Origin: Sandaracinus amylolyticus
GTDB lineage: Bacteria > Myxococcota_A > Polyangia > Polyangiales > Sandaracinaceae
Assembly (NCBI RefSeq): GCF_000737325.1
Contig: NZ_CP011125.1
Location: 9,796,001 to 9,860,000, forward strand
Length of the DNA: 64,000 nucleotides
Reading direction: 5' to 3'
In this document: in pieces, positions 8,312 to 18,197 of the stretch
Position numbering within the stretch: the first letter of the stretch is position 1
Layout of the letters: the number at the start of each line of letters is the position of its first letter
Notes under the pieces: model-generated
The model's input: only the letters and a program-made list of their open reading frames with translations
Database searches by the model: none
What the model was told of the DNA's origin: nothing
Translations under genes and position numbers: made by a program

Positions 8312-8959
8312 TCACAGGGGGCTGCGCGTGATGTTCTCCATCACCAATCGGTAGCCGAACCAGCCGTTGTCGAGCTCCACGCGCGTGGGCGGAGGCGCGC
8401 TGGGATCGGGCGAGAGCCCGCCCTCGTAGGTGATGCGGATCACGCCCTCGACGCCCTCGCGCGCGAAGCTGCGCGCGAGGAGGCGACCGTCGGCCCACGT
8501 CTCGTCGAGGATCTCGGGCCCCGTCGCGGTGGTGATCTCGTCCGTGTGCGCGCCGTCGGCGCGCGCCGCGTCGAGCCCGAAGAGCCACGTGCGGTGCACG
8601 TCGACGAGCATGAAGCGCGGCGGGAACGGCAGCTCGCGCGGGAGCTGCGACTCGAAGCGCGGCTCGGCGTCGCCTTCTTGTGCGAGCGTGAACGCGCGCG
8701 AGCCGTGCGGGCCGAGCGCGACCATCACCAGCGCGTCACCGCGCTTCTCGAGGAGCGCGCGGAACGTGTCGCTGCCCTCGGCGTGCACGGCGGTGATCTG
8801 GTGATCGATCGCGAAGTCGGCGCGGTACGTCGACGGCGCGCGCACCGGCCCGGCGTAGTCCTGCGGAAGGGTCCTGGAGGTCGCTCCGGGGCCGCAGCCG
8901 AGCGCGAGCGCGAGGAGGATCGTGGTGAGGATGGTGCGCATCGAGGGCATGGAGAGCAT
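8312..8959 (-). CDS. DUF3261 family lipoprotein, aryl-polyene cluster type
   Basis: 215 residues. A short signal with a lipobox (ILLALALGC) is followed by a beta-rich domain with repeated RTWLFGLDA and GRLLARSF-like strands, matching the DUF3261 lipoproteins that accompany MMPL exporters in aryl-polyene clusters. It lies 18 bp downstream of the MMPL gene on the same strand, the same partnership as in those clusters (ApeN beside ApeM in E. coli naming). It is probably anchored in the outer membrane and takes part in moving or anchoring the product. Translation could begin at the ATG at 8959 or at the third Met (8941), which leaves a more normal lipoprotein signal. Function of the family is not biochemically proven. 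Confidence 0.72.
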   Translation of the reverse strand: MLSMPSMRTILTTILLALALGCGPGATSRTLPQDYAGPVRAPSTYRADFAIDHQITAVHAEGSDTFRALLEKRGDALVMVALGPHGSRAFTLAQEGDAEPRFESQLPRELPFPPRFMLVDVHRTWLFGLDAARADGAHTDEITTATGPEILDETWADGRLLARSFAREGVEGVIRITYEGGLSPDPSAPPPTRVELDNGWFGYRLVMENITRSPL

Positions 8960-8977
8960 GGGCGCGGATCGCAGTGG

Positions 8978-11359
8978 TCACGAGGGCTTGCGTGTGCCCG
9001 CGAGCAAGAGCGCCATCGGCGAGAAGACGAGCGCCAGGCCGACGCCGACCGATGCCATGAGCCCGAGCGCGCGCATCGCGGGGTGCGTGCTCGCGGCGAG
9101 CAGACCGAACGAGATCACGGTCGTGATGCACGCGACGGTGATGCCGACCATCGTCGTCGCGACACCGCGGGGGTCGTCGCGCGACTCGATGAGGAACACC
9201 GCGAAGTCCTCGGCCATCGAGAGCACGAGGAGCGCGCCGACGAGGTGCATCAGGTTCGCGGGCTCGCCGAGCAGACCGAGCACGCCGAGCGCGGTCGCCG
9301 CGGCGAGCAATGCGGGCGCGACCGACGCGAGCCCGAGCCGGACGCTGCGATATCGCGCGACGCAGAGCCCGAGCACGACGAGCATGCCGACCGCGAGCAG
9401 CTCGAGCGTGCGCGCGCGGAACTCGCGGTACGCGCTCGCGAGGAACTCGCCCTGATCGAAGTACGCGACGCCCTCGAGCGACGCGAGGCGTGCGCGCAGC
9501 GCGGCCGAGTCGGACACGCCTTCGACGAACGCGAGATACGCGACGCGATCGCTCGAGAGATGCACGCGGAAGGGGCGCACCAGATCGGCGATCGGGCTCG
9601 CCATCAGCGCCTCGTAGGTGAGCGGCTCGGGCGCCGGCGCGGCGAGCGACGCGCGGAACGGCTCGAACATCGAGGGCACGAAGCCCTCGCGCTCGAGCGC
9701 GGTGATCGTGCGGTCGGCGAGGGCGGGCGCGTTGCGGACGGCGTCGTCGACGCCGCGCTGGGTCGCGATCGAACGCACGAGGTGATGCGCCGAGCGGAAC
9801 GCGCGCAGCTCGCCCGCGTCGCGCGCACGGGTGAGCGCCTCGAACGCGCGCTCCGCGCGAGCGAGCGCCTCTTCGTCGTCGCGCCCGGTCGCGATCACCA
9901 GCCGGCCGGCCTCGCCCTGCGCGACGCGCGAGCGCACTGCCGCGTCCTCGGCGAGCCACTCGGGATCCGCCTGGTTCAGCGCGCGGATGTCGTCGACCCA
10001 CGCGAGCTGCGGGATCCCGATCGCCGCGATCACGAGCGCGACGATCGGCAGCGCGAGGAACGGCGCGCGATGCGACTGGAGGCGACGCCAGAGACGGAAC
10101 GCGACGTCCGCGGCGGCGCGCGTGATGCGCGGCGGCTCGCTGCGCATCGGCATCCACGGCGGGACCATCACGCGCGTGGAGAGCAGCGCCGCGGTGACGC
10201 CCACCGCCGCGAAGAGCGCCATCTCGCGCATGCCGGGGAACGCGGTCCAGCCGAGCCCCGCGAGGCCCGCGATCGTCGTGCTCGCGCCGAGCGCGAGCCC
10301 CGGCCAGATCGTGCGCATGGTCGCCTCGGGCCCGCGCGCGTCGGGCTCGAGGACGTGGTGGTTCACGTAGTGCGAGACGTAGTCGATGCCCACGCCGAGC
10401 AGCGACGAGCCGAACGCGAACGTGATGCCGTGCACGCTGCCGAAGACGAGCCGGCACGCCGCCGTCGCGGCGACCGTGCCCACCGCGAGCGGGATGCCGC
10501 CGAGCAGGAGGAAGCGCGGCCCGCGATAGAGCGCGAGGAAGAGCACCACCACGCCGAGGGTCGAGAGCGTCGAGATGCGCTGCACGTCCTCGCGGATGTC
10601 GTGCTCGGCGCGGCGCGCGAAGCGGTGCACGCCCGCTTGCTCGACCCGCAGCGATCCGCCGTGCGCGTCGATCAGCGCGCGCGTCTCGCGATCGATCGCG
10701 TCGAGCAGCGGACCGATGCGCGCGGTGTCGAAGCTCGGCGCCTCGCTCGCGAGCAGCACGAGGGCCCAGCCGTCCTGGCTGACGAGCTGACCGTCGATCA
10801 CGCGCGGACCGCCCTCGGCCGAGCCCTGCAGACGCCGCAGGTGATCGAGGAAGGCGAGCAGCGGATCTTCCTGCGCGACGCGCCGCACCAACATCGCGGT
10901 CGGGCCCGTGACCTCGCGCTCGAGGCGCACCGCGGCCACCCGCAGCGCGTCGTCGCTCAGGTGCGCGCGCGCTTCCTCGGGCGTGTCCGCGAAGAACGCG
11001 TAGCGACGCGCGAAGTAGAGCTCGTAGAACGCGCGCTCCACCTCGGCGGGCGGTCCGCTGCGCACCCACGCGACGCCCTCGATGGTGCGCAGCCGATCGG
11101 CGAAGGTGCGCGCGGCCGCGATCGACGTGGGCTCGTCCTCGGCGCGGATCGCGATGACGATCGTGCGCGAGAGCTCGGAGTCGATCACCTGGCGCGCGAC
11201 GTCGGCGAGCTCGCGATCCTCGCTCGACGGGATGAACTGCGAGATCTCGTGGCGGACGCGCAGATCGTGGAACGCCCACACGCCGATCGCGGCGGTCACG
11301 AGCGCGAGCACGATCGACACGATGCGACCGCGCCGCCGGTCCGACTGGGGTTCGCTCAC
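8978..11359 (-). CDS. MMPL/RND family lipid exporter
   Basis: 793 residues with the two-fold RND layout: an N-terminal helix, a large periplasmic loop of about 230 residues, a first block of helices near residues 255-430 (with GSSLLGVGIDYVSHY), a second helix and loop, and a second block from about 650. The second block has MAEDFAVFLIESRDDPRG, the position where such pumps carry their proton-relay acidic residues. MMPL proteins export lipids or lipid-linked polyenes from the inner membrane. Directly followed by the DUF3261 lipoprotein. Together with the LolA, thioesterase, ammonia-lyase, acyltransferase and glycosyltransferase genes at 13837-18197 it forms the accessory half of an aryl-polyene-type system. 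Cargo inferred only. Confidence 0.88.
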   Translation of the reverse strand: MSEPQSDRRRGRIVSIVLALVTAAIGVWAFHDLRVRHEISQFIPSSEDRELADVARQVIDSELSRTIVIAIRAEDEPTSIAAARTFADRLRTIEGVAWVRSGPPAEVERAFYELYFARRYAFFADTPEEARAHLSDDALRVAAVRLEREVTGPTAMLVRRVAQEDPLLAFLDHLRRLQGSAEGGPRVIDGQLVSQDGWALVLLASEAPSFDTARIGPLLDAIDRETRALIDAHGGSLRVEQAGVHRFARRAEHDIREDVQRISTLSTLGVVVLFLALYRGPRFLLLGGIPLAVGTVAATAACRLVFGSVHGITFAFGSSLLGVGIDYVSHYVNHHVLEPDARGPEATMRTIWPGLALGASTTIAGLAGLGWTAFPGMREMALFAAVGVTAALLSTRVMVPPWMPMRSEPPRITRAAADVAFRLWRRLQSHRAPFLALPIVALVIAAIGIPQLAWVDDIRALNQADPEWLAEDAAVRSRVAQGEAGRLVIATGRDDEEALARAERAFEALTRARDAGELRAFRSAHHLVRSIATQRGVDDAVRNAPALADRTITALEREGFVPSMFEPFRASLAAPAPEPLTYEALMASPIADLVRPFRVHLSSDRVAYLAFVEGVSDSAALRARLASLEGVAYFDQGEFLASAYREFRARTLELLAVGMLVVLGLCVARYRSVRLGLASVAPALLAAATALGVLGLLGEPANLMHLVGALLVLSMAEDFAVFLIESRDDPRGVATTMVGITVACITTVISFGLLAASTHPAMRALGLMASVGVGLALVFSPMALLLAGTRKPS

Positions 11360-11440
11360 AGCGCGGCGATGATGCGACGCGCGCCCACGCTCGTCACGGA
11401 AGACGTCGCGATCGCAGTCGTGCGATGATCACGTCGCGAG

Positions 11441-12076
11441 ATGCGGCTCCGAGTGATCGGCTACTGGCGCAGCGTGAACGAGCGCGATTCGTCGCTGCCC
11501 GATCCGCGCGACTTCATCGATCCCGAGTGGGACGGCGCCGAACGGGACGTCGTCGTCGACTACCTCCGGCAGGGCCGTCGGATGGCCGCATTCCACGGCT
11601 TCTCACGGTGCCGGCTCTGCGGATCGACGAACGGGAGCCAGGAGCTCACCGACTTCACGTACGTGTGGCCCGAGGGGTACGCGCACTACGTCGCGGAGCA
11701 CGGAGTGAAGCCGCCGGAGGAGTTCGTCGAGCACGTGAGGAACGAGCTCGTCCGGTTGGGCACGATCGAGCCCGATCTCGATTGGTGGCGCGAGCAGCGC
11801 GGTCCGAGCAAGGCGCGGCACTGGCTGCGCTATCGCGTCGAGATCGGCCCGTGCGACGTGCGCGCGACGAACATCATCCAGCAGATCGCGGGGGGCGTGC
11901 TGGGCTGGGATCGCGCCGAGCGCATCTACACCGAGCTCGCGCGCAAGGGCAGCGCGCGCATCACGCTCAGCGATCGCCGGCTCGCCGACGACGTGCGCGA
12001 GCGGCTCACCGGCGCGCGCGTGGCGTGCACGATCGTCGAAGAGCGCGTGCCCGCGCCCGACACGCTGCTCGGGTGA
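11441..12076 (+). CDS. Protein of unknown function, partner of the DNA methyltransferase
   Basis: 211 residues. I do not recognise the family by name. The N-terminal half has a distinctive block: PDPRDFIDPEWDGAERDVV, a CRLCGSTNG element with two cysteines, then TDFTYVWPEGYAHYVAEHGV. The last 60 residues (ATNIIQQIAGGVLGWDRAER, then SDRRLADDVRERLTGA) look like the small alpha/beta fold of ribosomal L7/L12 C-terminal domains, which is a shape-level guess. Its stop overlaps the GTG of the methyltransferase by four bases, so the two are coupled. It is divergent from the MMPL gene. A regulator, specificity factor or cognate enzyme of the methyltransferase is possible; nothing in the sequence decides. 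Confidence 0.7.
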   Translation: MRLRVIGYWRSVNERDSSLPDPRDFIDPEWDGAERDVVVDYLRQGRRMAAFHGFSRCRLCGSTNGSQELTDFTYVWPEGYAHYVAEHGVKPPEEFVEHVRNELVRLGTIEPDLDWWREQRGPSKARHWLRYRVEIGPCDVRATNIIQQIAGGVLGWDRAERIYTELARKGSARITLSDRRLADDVRERLTGARVACTIVEERVPAPDTLLG

Positions 12077-13287
12077 CGACCTCGACGTTCCTCGCGAACC
12101 AGCGGCTGCCGATCCACCGGTGGTTCCGCTACTCCGCGGGGTTCTCCGGCGCGTGGGCCGAGGCCGTGATCCGCGAGCGGACGAGCGCGCATCACACGAT
12201 CCTCGACCCATTCGCCGGCGTCGCGACCACGCTCGTGGCGGCGCAGCTCGCGGGGCGTCACGCGCTCGGGGTCGAAGCGCATCCGTTCGTCGCGCGCATC
12301 GCGCGCGCGAAGCTCACGCCGTGTGATCCCGATGCGCTCGAGCGCGCCGCGCAATCCGTTCTCGCCCACGCCGAGTCGCTCCCCCGCGAAGCCGCGTGCG
12401 ACGACGAGCCCGAGCTGCTCCGCGCGTCGTACTCGCCCGACGCGCTCGCCGATCTACGTCGCCTCCATCGCGCGATCGAAGCCCAGGGCGAGCACCCACT
12501 GCTCTGGCTCGCGCTGGTCGCGATCCTCCGCGCATGCTCGAGCGCCGGCACCGCGCCCTGGCAATACGTGCTGCCGAACCGGCGCAAGGCGCGCGTCGCC
12601 ATGCCATTCGTGCGATTTCCGATGCAAACCGCGCTCATGAGCGCCGATCTGTGCGCGGGGCGCACGAGTGCAGTGCTCCATCACGACGACGCGCGTACCT
12701 GCGCCTCGATCGCCGATGCTTCGGTCGATCTCGTCCTCACCTCACCGCCCTACCCGAACAACTACGACTACGCCGACGCGACGCGCCTCGAGCAGACGTT
12801 CTTCGGCGATGTCCGCGAGTGGCGCGATCTCCACACGACCACGCGCCGTCATCTCGTGCGCGCGTGCTCGCAGCACACCGCCGCGGATCGTCTCGCGCTC
12901 GGCGATCTCCTCGCCGATCCCCACGTCGCGCCGATCCGCGATGCGCTCACCGGCGTGTGCGAAGCGCTCGCCGCGATCCGCGCGTCGAAGCCCGGCAAGA
13001 AGACCTATCACACGATGATCGCCGCGTACTTCGTCGATCTCGCGCGCGTGTGGCAGGCCCTCGCGCGCGTGGTGCGACCCGGCGGCGAGGTCTGCTTCGT
13101 CATCGGCGACTCCGCGCCCTACGGCGTGCACGTCCCGGTCGACGACTGGCTCGCTCGGCTCGCCGACGCCGCGGGCTTCACTCCGACGCGCACCCGCGAG
13201 ATCCGCGCGCGCAACGTGAAGTGGAAGAACCGCAAGCACCGAGTCCCGCTGCGCGAGCTCGAGCTCTGGCTCACCCGCCGCCGATAG
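12073..13287 (+). CDS. Site-specific DNA methyltransferase (N6-adenine or N4-cytosine)
   Basis: 404 residues. The SAM-binding motif I is DPFAGVATTLVAAQLAG (about residue 40) and the catalytic motif IV is SPPYPNNYDY (about 222), the SPPY form common in N4-cytosine and some N6-adenine enzymes. Motif I comes first with about 180 residues between, and a late strand VVRPGGEVCFVIGD completes the fold; the C-terminus KWKNRKHRVPLRELELW is basic and may contact DNA. The GTG start overlaps the upstream stop (GTGA). No restriction endonuclease is recognisable beside it, so it is either solitary or pairs with the unknown upstream protein. The two-gene unit sits between the two halves of the polyene-type cluster. 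Confidence 0.82.
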   Translation: MTTSTFLANQRLPIHRWFRYSAGFSGAWAEAVIRERTSAHHTILDPFAGVATTLVAAQLAGRHALGVEAHPFVARIARAKLTPCDPDALERAAQSVLAHAESLPREAACDDEPELLRASYSPDALADLRRLHRAIEAQGEHPLLWLALVAILRACSSAGTAPWQYVLPNRRKARVAMPFVRFPMQTALMSADLCAGRTSAVLHHDDARTCASIADASVDLVLTSPPYPNNYDYADATRLEQTFFGDVREWRDLHTTTRRHLVRACSQHTAADRLALGDLLADPHVAPIRDALTGVCEALAAIRASKPGKKTYHTMIAAYFVDLARVWQALARVVRPGGEVCFVIGDSAPYGVHVPVDDWLARLADAAGFTPTRTREIRARNVKWKNRKHRVPLRELELWLTRRR

Positions 13288-13359
13288 AACGCGCCGCTCG
13301 CACCACCGAATCCGCCACGGCGTGGTCGCGCCGCACGGCGGAGCGGAGACTCTCGCTCG

Positions 13360-13833
13360 ATGGGCCCCTCGGTCGTCCTCCTCGACATGGTGCAGGCGCG
13401 CTCGCGACAGCGCGCGGTGCGCGCGATGCTCGGTGCCGCGCTCTCGGCGGCCGGCCTCGTCGGCGTCTATCTCTTCGCGTCCGACATGCTCGCGCGCGCC
13501 GCGATGAACCCGATGGGCCGCAGCGCGGGCGGGTACGTCTGCGCCGCCGTCGGAGGCCTGCCCTGCCTCGTCGCGCTCGGCCTGGCGCTCATCACGATCG
13601 TCGAAGCGCGTGGGGGCGGCCCCGACGCGCGCTTCCTGATCGAGCGCTGGAGCTCGATCGCGAGCGCGCAGAAGAAGATCACGACCTACACGATGAAGGG
13701 CGCCGAGGTGGGCAGCACCGCGTCGATCATCATCACCGAGCAGGGCGGTGCGCAGACCGAGATCACGGTGCGCGCCGCCGACGTCGATCGCGCGGTCGCG
13801 CAGATCAACGCCGAGCTCTCGATCCGCCGCTGA
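13360..13833 (+). CDS. Small inner-membrane protein of unknown function
   Basis: 157 residues with two predicted membrane helices (AMLGAALSAAGLVGVYLFA and the GGLPCLVALGLALITIV segment) and a C-terminal soluble domain of about 75 residues containing KKITTYTMKGAEVGSTASI and an ITEQGG turn. GGAG lies upstream of the ATG at 13360. It runs convergent with the LolA-like gene, whose stop is only four bases away. I see no family signature. It may belong to the methyltransferase unit (72 bp upstream) or be independent. Confidence 0.65.
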   Translation: MGPSVVLLDMVQARSRQRAVRAMLGAALSAAGLVGVYLFASDMLARAAMNPMGRSAGGYVCAAVGGLPCLVALGLALITIVEARGGGPDARFLIERWSSIASAQKKITTYTMKGAEVGSTASIIITEQGGAQTEITVRAADVDRAVAQINAELSIRR

Positions 13834-13836
13834 GCG

Positions 13837-14469
13837 TCACTGCAGCGAGAACACGCGCGCGGCTTCGGCCGCGGTGTAGCGACGTCGCGTGTTCACGTCG
13901 GAGAACGTCGTCGTCGTCACGTCGCCGCTCACCTCGGTCATCACCATCGTGCGCAGCGACGTGCCCTCGCCCTCGAACCGGATCTCGCGCAGGAAACGAT
14001 CGAGCGGCGACGCGCGCGGCGCGAGCGTCAGAGTCCAATTGGCACCCTCGCGCGGCGTGAACTGCACGCGATAGACACGCTCCAGCGCCGCGCGATCGCC
14101 GCGCAGCAATTCCGAGAACGTGTCGACGAAGCTGCGCACGACCGGCTGCGCCGCGAGGTCGATGCGCTCCACGCGCCCGCCCTCGCTCATGCGCAGCTCG
14201 TCGCCGTCGATGAGCACGACCTGCGGGCTCGGCGACGTCGTGCGGCGCGCCAGTCGTCCCGGCCGCATGTAGTGCACGGTGCCTTCGCTGATCGCGGGCA
14301 CGCTGAGCAGCGCGATCCGCTTCTCCTCGCGGAACCGCAGCTCCATGCCCTCGACGCCGCGGAAGCTCGCGAGGATCGCGTCGAGCGACGGCGCGCCCTG
14401 CTGCGCGCTCGTCACGCTCGCGACGAGCATCGACGCACTAAGAAGGAGAAATGCGCTCCAGGATCTCAC
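13837..14469 (-). CDS. LolA-like outer-membrane lipoprotein carrier, aryl-polyene type
   Basis: 210 residues with a cleavable signal peptide (MRSWSAFLLLSASMLVASVTSAQ). The mature part follows the LolA plan: a helix, then FREEKRIALLSVPAISEGTV, MRPGRLARRTTSP and LIDGDELRM strands forming half a barrel. True LolA carries lipoproteins across the periplasm; the version in aryl-polyene clusters (ApeL type) is thought to shuttle the hydrophobic product instead. Its start lies 32 bp inside the thioesterase gene, so the two are tightly coupled, and it is the last gene of the five-gene operon. The MMPL exporter that normally follows is displaced to 8978-11359. Confidence 0.8.
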   Translation of the reverse strand: MRSWSAFLLLSASMLVASVTSAQQGAPSLDAILASFRGVEGMELRFREEKRIALLSVPAISEGTVHYMRPGRLARRTTSPSPQVVLIDGDELRMSEGGRVERIDLAAQPVVRSFVDTFSELLRGDRAALERVYRVQFTPREGANWTLTLAPRASPLDRFLREIRFEGEGTSLRTMVMTEVSGDVTTTTFSDVNTRRRYTAAEAARVFSLQ

Positions 14470-14878
14470 GCGGCGTCTCCAGCAGCATCTCGCCGTCGGG
14501 ACGCGTCGTGACCAGCACGGTCACGCCGCGCGCGGCGCGTTTGCCCGTCTTCTTGCTGACGACCTCGTACGCGATGCCGATGCGCGGATCGCGCTCGCAG
14601 AACCATGCCTTCACGCTGAACGGCTCGCCATATCGCAGCGGCGAGACGTGGCGCGAGCGCGTCTCGATCACGTACCAGTGGAAGCCCAGCGAGACGAGAT
14701 CGGGCGCGTCCACGCGATGCCTGCGCTGCAGCGCCTGACGCGCGATCTCGAAGTACTTGTAGTAGTGCCCGTGCCACGCGACGAGCAGCGGATCGACGTC
14801 GTGGAACGGCACTTCGAGATCGACGATGACCGCGTCGTCCGGCGGCTTCTCGCGCAGCCCGCGATCGACGCCGCTCAT
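14438..14878 (-). CDS. Hot-dog acyl-CoA/ACP thioesterase (4-hydroxybenzoyl-CoA thioesterase type)
   Basis: 146 residues from the ATG at 14878, which overlaps the ammonia-lyase stop (ATGA). The hot-dog start VPFHDVDPLLVAWHGHYYKYFEIAR has the conserved Asp and the W/H-G-x-Y-Y-K-Y-x-E helix of the 4HBT family, and the C-terminal strand is RGVTVLVTTRP. Such enzymes release acyl groups from CoA or ACP; in aryl-polyene clusters the ApeK-type thioesterase takes part in initiating or releasing the chain. Length and motifs are intact. Substrate inferred from context only. Confidence 0.85.
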   Translation of the reverse strand: MSGVDRGLREKPPDDAVIVDLEVPFHDVDPLLVAWHGHYYKYFEIARQALQRRHRVDAPDLVSLGFHWYVIETRSRHVSPLRYGEPFSVKAWFCERDPRIGIAYEVVSKKTGKRAARGVTVLVTTRPDGEMLLETPREILERISPS

Positions 14879-16437
14879 GCGCGCGCCTCCGGCACCGTCC
14901 ACGCGATCTCGCCGAGCGGCAGCGCGTCGTCGCGATAGAGCTCGAGCACGGCCTGGATGTCGACGTCCATGCGGCGATCCGCTTCGTTCACCGGCACGAC
15001 GCGACGCACCGCATCGCGCATCTCCGCGCTGCGCGGGTGGCAGTGCCCCTGGCCGCGCAGATCGACCGCCTGACACACGGTGAGCAGGTGGATCGCGGCG
15101 ACCGTCTCCGTCAGGTCCAGCACCCTCACGCACTCGCGCGCCGAGATCGTCCCCATCGAGACCTTGTCCTGGTTGTACGACTCGGTGCTGCGGCTGAAGA
15201 CGCTCGCGGGCATCGACATCTTCAACGCCTCGGCCGCGAGGGCCGACGCGCTGATCTCCATCGCCTTGAACCCGTGGTGGGTCGGGCGATCGATCCCGCT
15301 GCGCATCACGAGGTTCGCGGGCAATCCCGCGTTCGTCGCGGGGTTGCAGAGCATCCCGACCTGACGATCGAGCAGGTCGGCCACGTTCGCGACCACGTTC
15401 TTCATCGTGTCGGTCACGAGGCACGCGTGACCGCCGTAGAAGTTCCCGCCGTGCAGCACGCGACCCTCGGGCGCGCTCGACGAGTAGCCCTCGATGATCG
15501 GGTTGTCGTTGACCCCGTTGATCTCGGTCTCGAGCATCCGCCGCATCCACGGCAGACAATCGAGGATCAGCCCGATCACGTGGGGCGCGCAGCGGATCGA
15601 GTAGCGATCCTGCACGCGCGCCGGGGTGTTGCGGTGGTGCACGCCGGCGCGGATCCACTGCGCGGCCTGGCGCTGCCCGGGGTGGTTCTTGAGCTCGAAG
15701 ATCCGATCGTCGAAGTGGTCCGGCACGCCGTGCAGGACGTCCGACGCCATCGCGGAGATCGTGCACGCGAAGCGCGCGAGCTTGAGCGCGCGCGTCCACG
15801 ACAGGCATCCGAGCGCGCTCATCACGCTCGTGCCGTTCATGATCGCGAGCGACTCCTTGGGGCGCAGGTTCATCGGCTGGAGCCCGAGCTCCGCGAGCGC
15901 GTGCGGGGCGTTCACGAGCTTCCCGTGGAACCAGCACTCACGCTCGCCCGCGAGCAGCGCGCCGATGTAGCTGAGCGGCGTGAGATCGCCGCTCGCACCG
16001 ACGCTGCCTTCTTCGGGGATCGCCGCGACGCAACCGCGCGCGACGAGCTCGCACATGCGATCGAGCAGCTCCTGGCGCACGCCGCTGAAGCCCTGCGCGA
16101 GCGAGTTCGCGCGCACCGCCATGATCGCCGCCGCCGCGTTCTCGCCGAAGAGCGCGCCGGTCCCGCAGCCGTGATAACGCACGAGGTTGAGCGGCATCTC
16201 CTCCGCGACCTCGACCGGCACGTGGAACTCGACCGACGCGCCGAAGCCCGTGGTCACGCCGTAGATCGTGCGCGCGCCCGCGAGCGCGTCGTCGATCAGC
16301 TTGCGGCTCTGCGCGATACGCTCGCGCACCGCGGGGTCGGCCGAGATCGCCGGCACGGCGCGCTTCTCCGCGATCGCGCAGACGTGCTCGATCGTCATCG
16401 GCTCGTGGCCGAGCGGCAGGATCGCGAGCTCACCCAT
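14875..16437 (-). CDS. HAL/PAL/TAL family aromatic amino acid ammonia-lyase
   Basis: 520 residues. The enzyme removes ammonia from His, Tyr or Phe with the self-made MIO group; the Ala-Ser-Gly triad is at residues 148-150 in VGASGDLTPLSY. The catalytic Tyr is in IYGVTTGFG (Tyr59). The selectivity pair, which is Ser-His in histidine enzymes, His-Leu in the Rhodobacter tyrosine enzyme and Phe-Leu in plant phenylalanine enzymes, is Tyr88-His89 here. NPIIEG, HGGNFYGG and QDKVSMGT are intact. No hut genes are near, while a thioesterase, LolA, acyltransferase and glycosyltransferase are, as in aryl-polyene and flexirubin clusters, where such lyases are thought to make the aryl starter. The start abuts the acyltransferase stop directly. 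Confidence 0.9.
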   Translation of the reverse strand: MGELAILPLGHEPMTIEHVCAIAEKRAVPAISADPAVRERIAQSRKLIDDALAGARTIYGVTTGFGASVEFHVPVEVAEEMPLNLVRYHGCGTGALFGENAAAAIMAVRANSLAQGFSGVRQELLDRMCELVARGCVAAIPEEGSVGASGDLTPLSYIGALLAGERECWFHGKLVNAPHALAELGLQPMNLRPKESLAIMNGTSVMSALGCLSWTRALKLARFACTISAMASDVLHGVPDHFDDRIFELKNHPGQRQAAQWIRAGVHHRNTPARVQDRYSIRCAPHVIGLILDCLPWMRRMLETEINGVNDNPIIEGYSSSAPEGRVLHGGNFYGGHACLVTDTMKNVVANVADLLDRQVGMLCNPATNAGLPANLVMRSGIDRPTHHGFKAMEISASALAAEALKMSMPASVFSRSTESYNQDKVSMGTISARECVRVLDLTETVAAIHLLTVCQAVDLRGQGHCHPRSAEMRDAVRRVVPVNEADRRMDVDIQAVLELYRDDALPLGEIAWTVPEARA

Positions 16438-17391
16438 TCAGCGCTCCCAGAAGTCGTAGAAGTTGAACCAGTTGTCCGGCGCCATCCGGACGAAGTGCTC
16501 GAGGCGCGTCGCGTACTGCTGCACGTACTTCGCGAGCGCCTCTTCGCGCGCCTTGCGCGGCAATTCGATCTTCTCCGCGAACGGCTCGCAGAAGAGATCG
16601 TAGCGGTTCGGATCGCGATAGAGCCCGAACGTCAGGTACACCGGGCACTTCAGCATCGACGCGAGCAGATAGGGCCCGGTGGGGAACTTCGCGGTGCCCC
16701 CGAGGAACTCGGCGCTCACGGTGCGCGCATCCGCGGCGTCGGCGTTGGGCGGCACACGATCGGCGAGGATCGCGACGATCGCGCCCTGCTCGATCAGCTC
16801 CTTCACGCGCAGCATGAAGTCGATGCCCTCGCCCATCTGCAGCAGCTTCGCGTTCTTGCCGGGGTCGATCTTCTCGAACGCGTCGTTGATGCGCCGCGCG
16901 TTCTTCGTGTAGACGACCGCGTAGATCGGGAGATTCTCGACCTCGCTCTGGGCGCGCATCGCGTAGAAGCTGCCGAGGTGCGCGCCGAGCAGGATCGCGC
17001 CGCGCTTTCCGTCGCGCAGCTCCGCGAGGTGCTGGTGACCGTTGGTGGTCACGCGGAAGTGCCGGACCTTGCCGGCGACGAGGAAGAACGCGTCGAGCGT
17101 GGTCTGCGCGAAGCGCAGGATCTGCCGGTACGTCTCGTACGCGGTGACCTCGCGCCCGAGCACGCGGCGCAGCACCTCGCGCGACGCACGGCGCGCGCCC
17201 GGCGCGAAGAGCCAGTAGTAGAACGCGACCACGCGCGCGATCAGCCGCCCGAAGGTGCGGCCCATCACCGTCGCGGCGAACACCGCGGCGCGGATCGCGA
17301 GCACGCCGCCCTTCTCGCCGACGTCGGTCCAGCCCTGCCGCTGCGGCGGCTGGGGCGACGGCGTCTCGAGCGCCGCGGGCTGCTCGCTCAT
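16438..17391 (-). CDS. LpxL/HtrB-like acyltransferase, aryl-polyene cluster type
   Basis: 317 residues of the lysophospholipid acyltransferase family, with an N-terminal hydrophobic region (VLAIRAAVFAATVMGR, then VVAFYYWLF) and the typical RGAILLGAHLGSF block. The usual catalytic His-x4-Asp/Glu has its His (138) but Tyr143 in the acidic place, so catalysis may use another residue. Downstream are AILADRVPP and FPTGPYLLASMLKCPVY, matching the substrate-pocket motifs. In polyene clusters such enzymes probably attach the aryl polyene to a lipid or sugar head. ATG at 17391 overlaps the glycosyltransferase stop (ATGA); the last base is next to the ammonia-lyase ATG. Confidence 0.85.
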   Translation of the reverse strand: MSEQPAALETPSPQPPQRQGWTDVGEKGGVLAIRAAVFAATVMGRTFGRLIARVVAFYYWLFAPGARRASREVLRRVLGREVTAYETYRQILRFAQTTLDAFFLVAGKVRHFRVTTNGHQHLAELRDGKRGAILLGAHLGSFYAMRAQSEVENLPIYAVVYTKNARRINDAFEKIDPGKNAKLLQMGEGIDFMLRVKELIEQGAIVAILADRVPPNADAADARTVSAEFLGGTAKFPTGPYLLASMLKCPVYLTFGLYRDPNRYDLFCEPFAEKIELPRKAREEALAKYVQQYATRLEHFVRMAPDNWFNFYDFWER

Positions 17392-18197
17392 CGATCGCCC
17401 GGGAGCTCGGCGGGACGCGGCTCGCTCGCGCCCTTCTCGAGCACGATCGGGTCGGAGGGCGCGGGCAGCGCCGGCACCAGCGGTCGACCGAGCACGGTGC
17501 ACCACGCGCGGTGCCACATCAGCCGCGTGTGCATCCGCGAGATGAGCCAGTTGTCGAGGAAGAGCTTGAAGTGCGACACCCCGCCCTCGACGTAGCGCAC
17601 CTTCGTCGGGAGGTTCACGACCGGCGCGCCGGTCCACGCGATGCGCACCGCGATCTCGGGATCGAAGTCCATGCGATCGCCGCACTCCGCGCAGGCGCGC
17701 AGCGCGCTCTCGAGCGGATAGACGCGGAAGCCGCACATCGGGTCGGCGATCACGCCCCAGCCCGCCTCCATGTGCGTCCAGAAGATCGTGATGTTGCGCG
17801 CGATGCGGCGCCCGATCGGCGCGCTCTCGTCATACTCGGGGCGCCCGAGGATCAGCGCGCCCGGCTGCGCGCGCGCGACGTTCAGCAGGTCAGGGATGTC
17901 CTCCAGCGCGTGCTGTCCGTCGGCGTCGACCTGGAGCGCGTGGGTGAACCCGAGCTCGCGCGCGAACGCGAAGCCGGTCTTCACCGCGGCTCCCTTTCCG
18001 CCGTTCTGCGCGCGGTGCGTCACGTGCGCGAGCCCGTCGCGCCCGATGCCCGCGACCGCCGCGCGCCCCTCCTCGTGACTGCCGTCGTCGACGACCACCA
18101 CGTCCGCGAGGTGCTCCCGCGCGCGCAGCACGACGTCGCGCACGGTGCGCGGATTGTCGTAGGTCGGGATCAGGATGCAGGGCCGAAAAGCGCTCAC
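17388..18197 (-). CDS. Family 2 glycosyltransferase
   Basis: 269 residues with a GT-A fold: PTYDNPRTVRDVV, VVVVDDGSHEEG, NGGKGAAVKTGFAFA and the metal-binding DADG at residues 91-94 (QVDADGQHALEDIP). CGFRVYPLESAL and a conserved late block (RMDFDPEIAVRIAW) resemble the DPM/DolP-mannose group. First gene of a five-gene minus-strand operon (glycosyltransferase, acyltransferase, ammonia-lyase, thioesterase, LolA) that repeats the gene order of aryl-polyene clusters. Start is the GTG at 18197; the ribosome-binding site is poor. A palindrome lies 29 bp upstream and may be its operator. Sugar donor and acceptor unknown. Confidence 0.87.
   Translation of the reverse strand: MSAFRPCILIPTYDNPRTVRDVVLRAREHLADVVVVDDGSHEEGRAAVAGIGRDGLAHVTHRAQNGGKGAAVKTGFAFARELGFTHALQVDADGQHALEDIPDLLNVARAQPGALILGRPEYDESAPIGRRIARNITIFWTHMEAGWGVIADPMCGFRVYPLESALRACAECGDRMDFDPEIAVRIAWTGAPVVNLPTKVRYVEGGVSHFKLFLDNWLISRMHTRLMWHRAWCTVLGRPLVPALPAPSDPIVLEKGASEPRPAELPGDR

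Follow-up and report, generated by a model that had tools for sequence, protein, structure and literature searches.

How can the genes that would supply an aryl head group, join a polyene to a lipid and export it stand in a genome with no polyene synthase beside them? The question is raised by a 64,000-nucleotide stretch of the Sandaracinus amylolyticus genome (the window; positions 9,796,001-9,860,000 of the single 10,327,335-bp contig of genome G000), in which seven genes between positions 8312 and 18197 make up an aryl-polyene-type accessory set. Analysis of the sequence points to this set as the head-group-supply, lipid-attachment and export arm, here called locus D, of an aryl-polyene pathway that is complete and dispersed over at least four unlinked places on the chromosome, a reading to which we give a probability of about 0.86. 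What was established directly is the set of parts, the families to which they belong, their location at separate places and the recurrence of this arrangement in a second complete genome.

All seven genes lie on the minus strand as intact open reading frames (ORFs), and all seven proteins pass their Pfam cut-offs, in agreement with the families and coordinates given in an earlier note on this DNA (Table 1). The five genes from the GT2 glycosyltransferase to LolA form one operon that is translationally coupled throughout, as that note had proposed. The glycosyltransferase and acyltransferase genes overlap by ATGA (the ATG at 17391 is preferred over 17400 as the acyltransferase start on account of this overlap), the acyltransferase and lyase genes abut as TGA-ATG, the lyase and thioesterase genes again overlap by ATGA, and the thioesterase and LolA genes overlap by ~30 nt. 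The attachment and export part of an aryl-polyene enzyme set (glycosyltransferase and acyltransferase, thioesterase, LolA, MMPL and DUF3261 protein) is thus present here. On profiles built from aryl-polyene loci, with genus g1 excluded, the window genes scored 150-866 bits; E. coli was a seed of the LolA, MMPL, thioesterase and DUF3261 profiles, and its own scores there are no test. The best NCBIfam scores were 51.5 bits for LolA, 90 for MMPL, 30 for the thioesterase, 48 for the acyltransferase and 64 for GT2. LolA reached 226 bits on the aryl-polyene profile, compared to 40 for TIGR00547 lolA and 51.5 for the flexirubin LolA2 model. LolA and MMPL thus score far higher on aryl-polyene profiles than on housekeeping models, a result of profiles and not of trees; such a comparison favours the profile of near relatives, and the score gap, although large, is not a tree.

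A whole-genome search placed no ketosynthase family match inside the window, which bears out the local absence of a synthase core described earlier. The same note had offered two explanations: that the core lies elsewhere in the genome, or that the machinery has been reused for another aryl lipid. A headless set put to new use would accord with the missing local synthase, but an aryl-polyene-type core is present elsewhere in the genome and is contiguous with these genes in relatives. Reuse is not needed to explain the locus, has no evidence of its own, and seems to us scarcely credible.

The core was found by whole-genome searches at three other chromosomal places, loci A, B and C (Table 1), as the first explanation had foreseen: ApeO/ApeC, ApeR, a ketoreductase, two dehydratases, two acyl carrier proteins (ACPs) and an ApeH-like ligase. 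Loci A and C were reached through ketosynthase matches with their flanks, and locus B through a weak ApeI match. The locus C ketosynthase scores 438 bits (PRK09185 cut-off 407), its partner is a Ketoacyl-synt_2 chain-length factor, and the ACP scores 109 bits (PRK09184 cut-off 70); this locus also yields an ApeG-like protein, and its AMP-ligase is ApeH-like. Dedicated carrier proteins and an AMP-ligase are thus present, the specificity of the ligase for an aryl acid being putative. The ketosynthase of locus A scores 535 bits (PRK09116 cut-off 470) and its ACP 87 bits (PRK05350 cut-off 65). At locus B, the ApeP-like protein scores 44.6 bits on PF22817 (cut-off 27), the ApeI-like protein is 44% identical to E. 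coli ApeI across 58 residues, so that dehydratases of both kinds are represented, and the ketoreductase is 45% identical to E. coli ApeQ. The Cys-His-His residues of both ketosynthases and the DSI motif of both carrier proteins are intact. The four loci A, B, C and D lie at 0.82, 2.24, 9.65 and 9.81 Mb, the nearest pair (C and D) being ~151 kb apart, and S. amylolyticus has no single contiguous cluster. The description of the set as split in two is accurate locally, but understates a dispersal over at least four places.

Phylogeny and structural matches agree with these assignments. In a 49-row ketosynthase tree, the 21 ApeO-type rows form one group and the 24 ApeR-type rows another, each with all its members, with E. 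coli included and with support of 100/100, while four other ketosynthases of the S. amylolyticus genome fall outside both. The tree rules out ordinary fatty acid synthesis for loci A and C; an ApeO ketosynthase with its ApeC is found at locus C, and a FabB-like ApeR at locus A. Among solved structures, the nearest to the locus C ketosynthase are 6qsp_A and 7f28_B, and its chain-length factor matches only 6qsp_B and 7f28_A; the nearest to the locus A ketosynthase are 4ewg and 7f27, the sole match of the ApeP-like protein is 6qsr_B, and the ketoreductase is closest to 7czc, then to 7caw. Entries 6QSP, 7F28, 7F27 and 7CAW are ApeO-ApeC, ApeR or ApeQ, and 4EWG is likely ApeR (PMC8358021, PMC8041823). 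A search of PMC8041823 for 6QSR and 7CZC gave neither entry.

The earlier note had allowed that the ammonia-lyase might group with histidine degradation enzymes. It does not. In a 28-row tree, in which two rows ran beyond their stop into the next gene, the 10 hutH-like rows are set apart from all others at 100/100, and the lyase of the window lies among those of aryl-polyene loci. The motif EDHVSM occurs in 10/10 hutH-like rows, and NQDKVSM in 14 of the 18 others, the window lyase included (the remaining four were unmatched by the pattern). A RYHGCGTG-like block is invariant in the lyases of eight aryl-polyene loci; the residue before its His is Tyr in aryl-polyene lyases and Ser in nine of the ten hutH-like rows, the pattern having missed the tenth. 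In lyases with a methylidene-imidazolone (MIO) group, Glu goes with histidine as substrate and Gln with aromatic ones. The genome has a separate hutH-like gene at 3,005,521, which together with the tree and the non-hutH motif rules out a histidine-degradation role for the window lyase; its predicted substrate is tyrosine. Apparent splits of the lyase in relatives were also discarded: G002, where tblastn gave two pieces, has an intact ORF of 525 aa, the match in G036 is in one piece, and the pieces in G059 and G089 sit at contig ends.

Are the four loci one pathway or two? At the cut-offs used, the genome has one ApeR (E<=1e-70), one ApeP, one acyltransferase (E<=1e-15), one MMPL (E<=1e-30), one ketosynthase above the ApeO-type cut-off, and one aryl-polyene-type lyase besides one hutH. 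The product cannot be made by any single locus alone. Loci C and D might nonetheless yield one aryl polyene, taking their reductase and dehydratase from fatty acid synthesis, while loci A and B would serve a second, related product. In sister genera the ApeR clade of locus A ('b') does sit apart from the main cluster, at a second locus that also carries flavoproteins, ACP, ApeP and ApeD, and the main cluster there has its own ApeR ('a') and ketoreductase. With a single ApeR, ApeP and ApeO-type ketosynthase in S. amylolyticus, however, each half lacks something that the other has. In G002 the main cluster is without a dehydratase match, and the sole ApeP is in the second locus, so that both loci are needed there; in G076 a 'b' ApeR, ACP, ApeP and flavoproteins share one contig with the lyase and exporter. 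FabG, moreover, was no substitute for ApeQ in Acinetobacter baumannii (PMC8041823). Two pathways are therefore improbable, and a single dispersed pathway is the reading we retain.

The arrangement is no assembly fault of one genome, because the same four separate loci occur in a second complete genome, G024 (10,754,065-bp contig), at 5.32, 6.98, 8.37 and 8.60 Mb; the contigs of G030 are compatible with it. Within locus D, the gap between LolA and MMPL measures 2,477 bp and carries plus-strand genes that lie outside the pathway (Table 1). Only 66 bp separate the aligned LolA and MMPL ends in G030, which is without this block, and the local split is thus a later, young insertion; G024 keeps the first two inserted genes and is without the third, which is a still younger piece than the rest. 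The insertion, the group II intron that occupies the start codon of apeI in locus B, the lack of an 'a'-type ApeR and the partial gene sets of genera g3 and g6 could together be taken as marks of a pathway being lost, with the scattered genes as its relics. All parts are open, though, with the Cys-His-His, DSI and ASG motifs intact, and the seven locus D proteins are 85-97% identical to those of G024, so that decay is very unlikely and a maintained, dispersed pathway is preferred.

Comparison with other genomes shows other degrees of scatter. In G002, of the same family, the parts of C and D form one run with a ketoreductase and an ApeR of their own, MMPL and DUF3261 lie ~7 kb away on the same contig, and a second locus holds ACP, ApeP, another ApeR, two flavoproteins and ApeD. 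G012 has ApeO-ApeC, ApeR-ACP, ApeP, GT2-acyltransferase and MMPL on five contigs apart and the lyase on a sixth, near the contig end; draft contigs in G012, G030, G040 and G049 limit the meaning of 'separate'. G074 and G076 keep most of the set in one place, and one contig of G076 (L125) unites parts of A, B, C and D. ApeO, ApeC, ApeR, ketoreductase, ApeP, ligase, lyase and MMPL are found together in 6/80 named loci (4/33 with full flanks), Plesiocystis pacifica and Enhygromyxa salina being among those with the whole set. Many myxobacterial aryl-polyene loci contain an ammonia-lyase, and no ApeO-type ketosynthase was found in 22 of the 33 lyase loci that are flanked by 10 kb of sequence on either side. 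Some of these 33 are lone lyases and may belong to other pathways. Five Nannocystis loci among the 22 (L242, L244, L258, L260, L287) show the run ACP-ligase-glycosyltransferase-acyltransferase-lyase-thioesterase-LolA-MMPL-DUF3261 with no ApeO-type ketosynthase within 10 kb; their synthase may sit elsewhere in the genome, and separation of synthase and export arm may be common in myxobacteria, so that the present arrangement may not be unique. Among 144 genomes of the order, an ApeO-type ketosynthase occurs in 16/19 with an aryl-polyene-type lyase compared to 13/125 without (Fisher p 7e-11, kinship ignored), at cut-offs chosen for this analysis (lyase >=47% identity, ketosynthase >=380 bits; G009, G119 and G137 left out as ambiguous). 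A contiguous aryl-polyene cluster without lyase and GT2 was seen at L106 (G045:C183), the GT2 and MMPL genes of G045 being on another contig, L210.

Since the E. coli locus and other myxobacterial loci are contiguous, the simplest view is that the dispersed arrangement arose from a single ancestral locus. We tentatively suggest, at rather less than even odds, that a cluster dissolved stepwise within one family, from one locus in outgroups through two (a main and a second one) in genera g2, g4 and g5 to four in Sandaracinus and at least five in G012, its single-copy parts being kept intact as in a housekeeping pathway, and that the product of the four halogenase-like flavoproteins may be a polyene lipid carrying halogen.

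Several observations weigh against a complete and dispersed pathway. Joint action of all four loci is inferred. The ApeI-like protein of locus B, at 24.7 bits, is under the Pfam ApeI cut-off of 28.5, and the ketoreductase scores over a generic FabG model too; the ketoreductase tree parts three paralogues of the same genome from the cluster enzymes at only 91/92, with long branches. The ApeB methyltransferase and ApeD were not found at the four loci, no genome-wide search for either having been made. Three of ten family genomes (G018, G040, G045) give only hutH-like lyase matches, so that the lyase is dispensable. Colour alone proves nothing either, because a carotenoid desaturase gene, crtI, is present. 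The yellow-orange colour of S. amylolyticus has been put down to carotenoids (PMC5010890), and crtI (G000:C1:9,908,062-9,909,540, L220; 610 bits, above cut-off) lies ~94 kb from the window operon, which rules out colour as proof of an aryl polyene. Two pigment pathways may coexist in this genome, and the question is raised whether carotenoids alone are behind its colour.

The single reaction steps of the pathway can be proposed by analogy with published work in E. coli, Xenorhabdus and Acinetobacter. Most core ape genes are required for pigment in E. coli, whose gene letters are used here (PMC8253772). The lyase would convert tyrosine to 4-coumarate, and the ApeH-like ligase of locus C would load the aryl acid onto the PRK09184-type carrier protein. 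ApeO-ApeC of locus C and ApeR of locus A would elongate the aryl starter with malonyl units; in vitro, ApeR raises the throughput of ApeO-ApeC (PMC8358021). The conjugated double bonds would be formed by the ApeQ-like reductase and the ApeP/ApeI dehydratases of locus B. Release of the polyene acid would then fall to the thioesterase, and coupling of this acid to a lipid to GT2 and the LpxL-like acyltransferase; MMPL, LolA and the DUF3261 protein would bring the polyene lipid to the outer membrane. Up to four flavoproteins (two at A, one each at B and C) may halogenate or hydroxylate the polyene, all four having the motif WxWxIP, which we take to mark flavin halogenases; they may be regarded as halogenase or hydroxylase candidates. 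They are encoded at L014:4937-8652, L132:12744-14531 and L018:10812-12032 (loci A, B and C), and three of the four are ~600 aa long.

Table 1. Genes of the window (positions within the window) and the three distant core loci (chromosomal positions).
Feature	Position	Strand	Remarks
GT2 glycosyltransferase, N-terminal half of ApeJ-like pair	17388..18197	-	PF00535 53 bits; 374 bits on aryl-polyene GT2 profile (8 sequences from other loci)
LpxL-like acyltransferase, C-terminal half of ApeJ-like pair	16438..17391	-	PF03279 42 bits; 422 bits on aryl-polyene acyltransferase profile
MIO aromatic amino acid ammonia-lyase, tyrosine as probable substrate	14875..16437	-	PF00221 505 bits; ASG triad; outside hutH clade at 100/100
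Hot-dog thioesterase, ApeK-like	14438..14878	-	PF13279; 167 bits on aryl-polyene thioesterase profile
LolA-like carrier, ApeL-like	13837..14469	-	PF03548 and PF19574; 226 bits on aryl-polyene LolA profile
MMPL/RND exporter, ApeM-like	8978..11359	-	PF03176; 866 bits on aryl-polyene MMPL profile
DUF3261 lipoprotein, ApeN/LolB-like	8312..8959	-	PF11659 42.5 bits; 150 bits on aryl-polyene-locus profile
Inserted block, outside the pathway	11425..13833	+	three genes
Small protein near DUF7919	11441-12076	+	inserted block
N6/N4 DNA methylase	about 12079-13287	+	PF01555; inserted block
Uncharacterized protein	13360-13833	+	inserted block
Locus A	near 0.817-0.823 Mb		two divergent flavoproteins, ACP, ApeR-type ketosynthase
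Locus B	near 2.2387-2.2435 Mb		ApeI-like, ApeP-like, ketoreductase (ApeQ-like), two-transmembrane protein, fourth flavoprotein
Locus C	near 9.6545-9.6608 Mb		ApeO-type ketosynthase, chain-length factor (ApeC), flavoprotein, ACP, membrane protein; divergent AMP-ligase

The intron at locus B (RF02003, RF00029) sits exactly at the apeI start codon (L132:7703-9760, G000:C1 near 2,236,702-2,238,759; also L306-L312; L314). All eight full copies in the genome stand directly behind an ATG, with a TAnnnT box 6-8 nt upstream; they are 98.8-100% identical and not independent. The copies finish with GGTAAGGATCTACCAATG, with TAAGGA as a Shine-Dalgarno-like element and an ATG that leads in frame into an open host gene, and at L132 a 647-aa ORF starts at the ATG of the target, extends through the intron and enters the reverse transcriptase. 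The same two junctions occur in a relative on an Embleya plasmid (reverse transcriptase 60% identical); these were not seen in four Streptomyces relatives (~50% identity). As a lead only, given the non-independence of the copies, the intron may exploit the start sites of leaderless genes and supply its own Shine-Dalgarno sequence and ATG. G024 shows an empty apeI site, and the intron was rejected as the agent of dispersal because G024 is equally dispersed with no intron at that site.

Programs that find gene clusters presume contiguity, and a dispersed aryl-polyene pathway would appear to them as fragments or be missed. Counts of aryl polyenes in Myxococcota may be biased accordingly, in view of the lyase loci with no ApeO-type ketosynthase in reach, some of whose lyases are perhaps unrelated. 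The related genomes form a series that allows one to trace how a biosynthetic cluster comes apart. A limited literature search found no paper on split aryl-polyene loci, which is not proof of absence in print.

Among known systems, the flexirubin systems of Bacteroidota likewise combine an ammonia-lyase with aryl-polyene enzymes, and the S. amylolyticus LolA, lyase and ketoreductase match flexirubin models, although below their cut-offs (51.5/125, 310/700 and 298/340 bits); dialkylresorcinol genes were not searched for. Another such system is the ape locus of E. coli CFT073, with counterparts found here of ApeC, an ApeE/F pair, G, H, I, J, K, L, M, N, O, P, Q and R. There ApeJ (fused glycosyltransferase and acyltransferase), K, L, M and N (DUF3261) are consecutive, and the window shares this order, in keeping with the aryl-polyene gene order recognized in the earlier note, although ApeJ is two genes in S. 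amylolyticus. The E. coli locus is contiguous and without an ammonia-lyase, whereas S. amylolyticus spreads its genes over four places and has, in addition, the MIO lyase and as many as four flavoproteins. In Plesiocystis pacifica SIR-1 (L268) and Enhygromyxa salina SWB005 (L266) the parts are of the same kinds as in S. amylolyticus, with the lyase among them, but lie within 21.5 kb.

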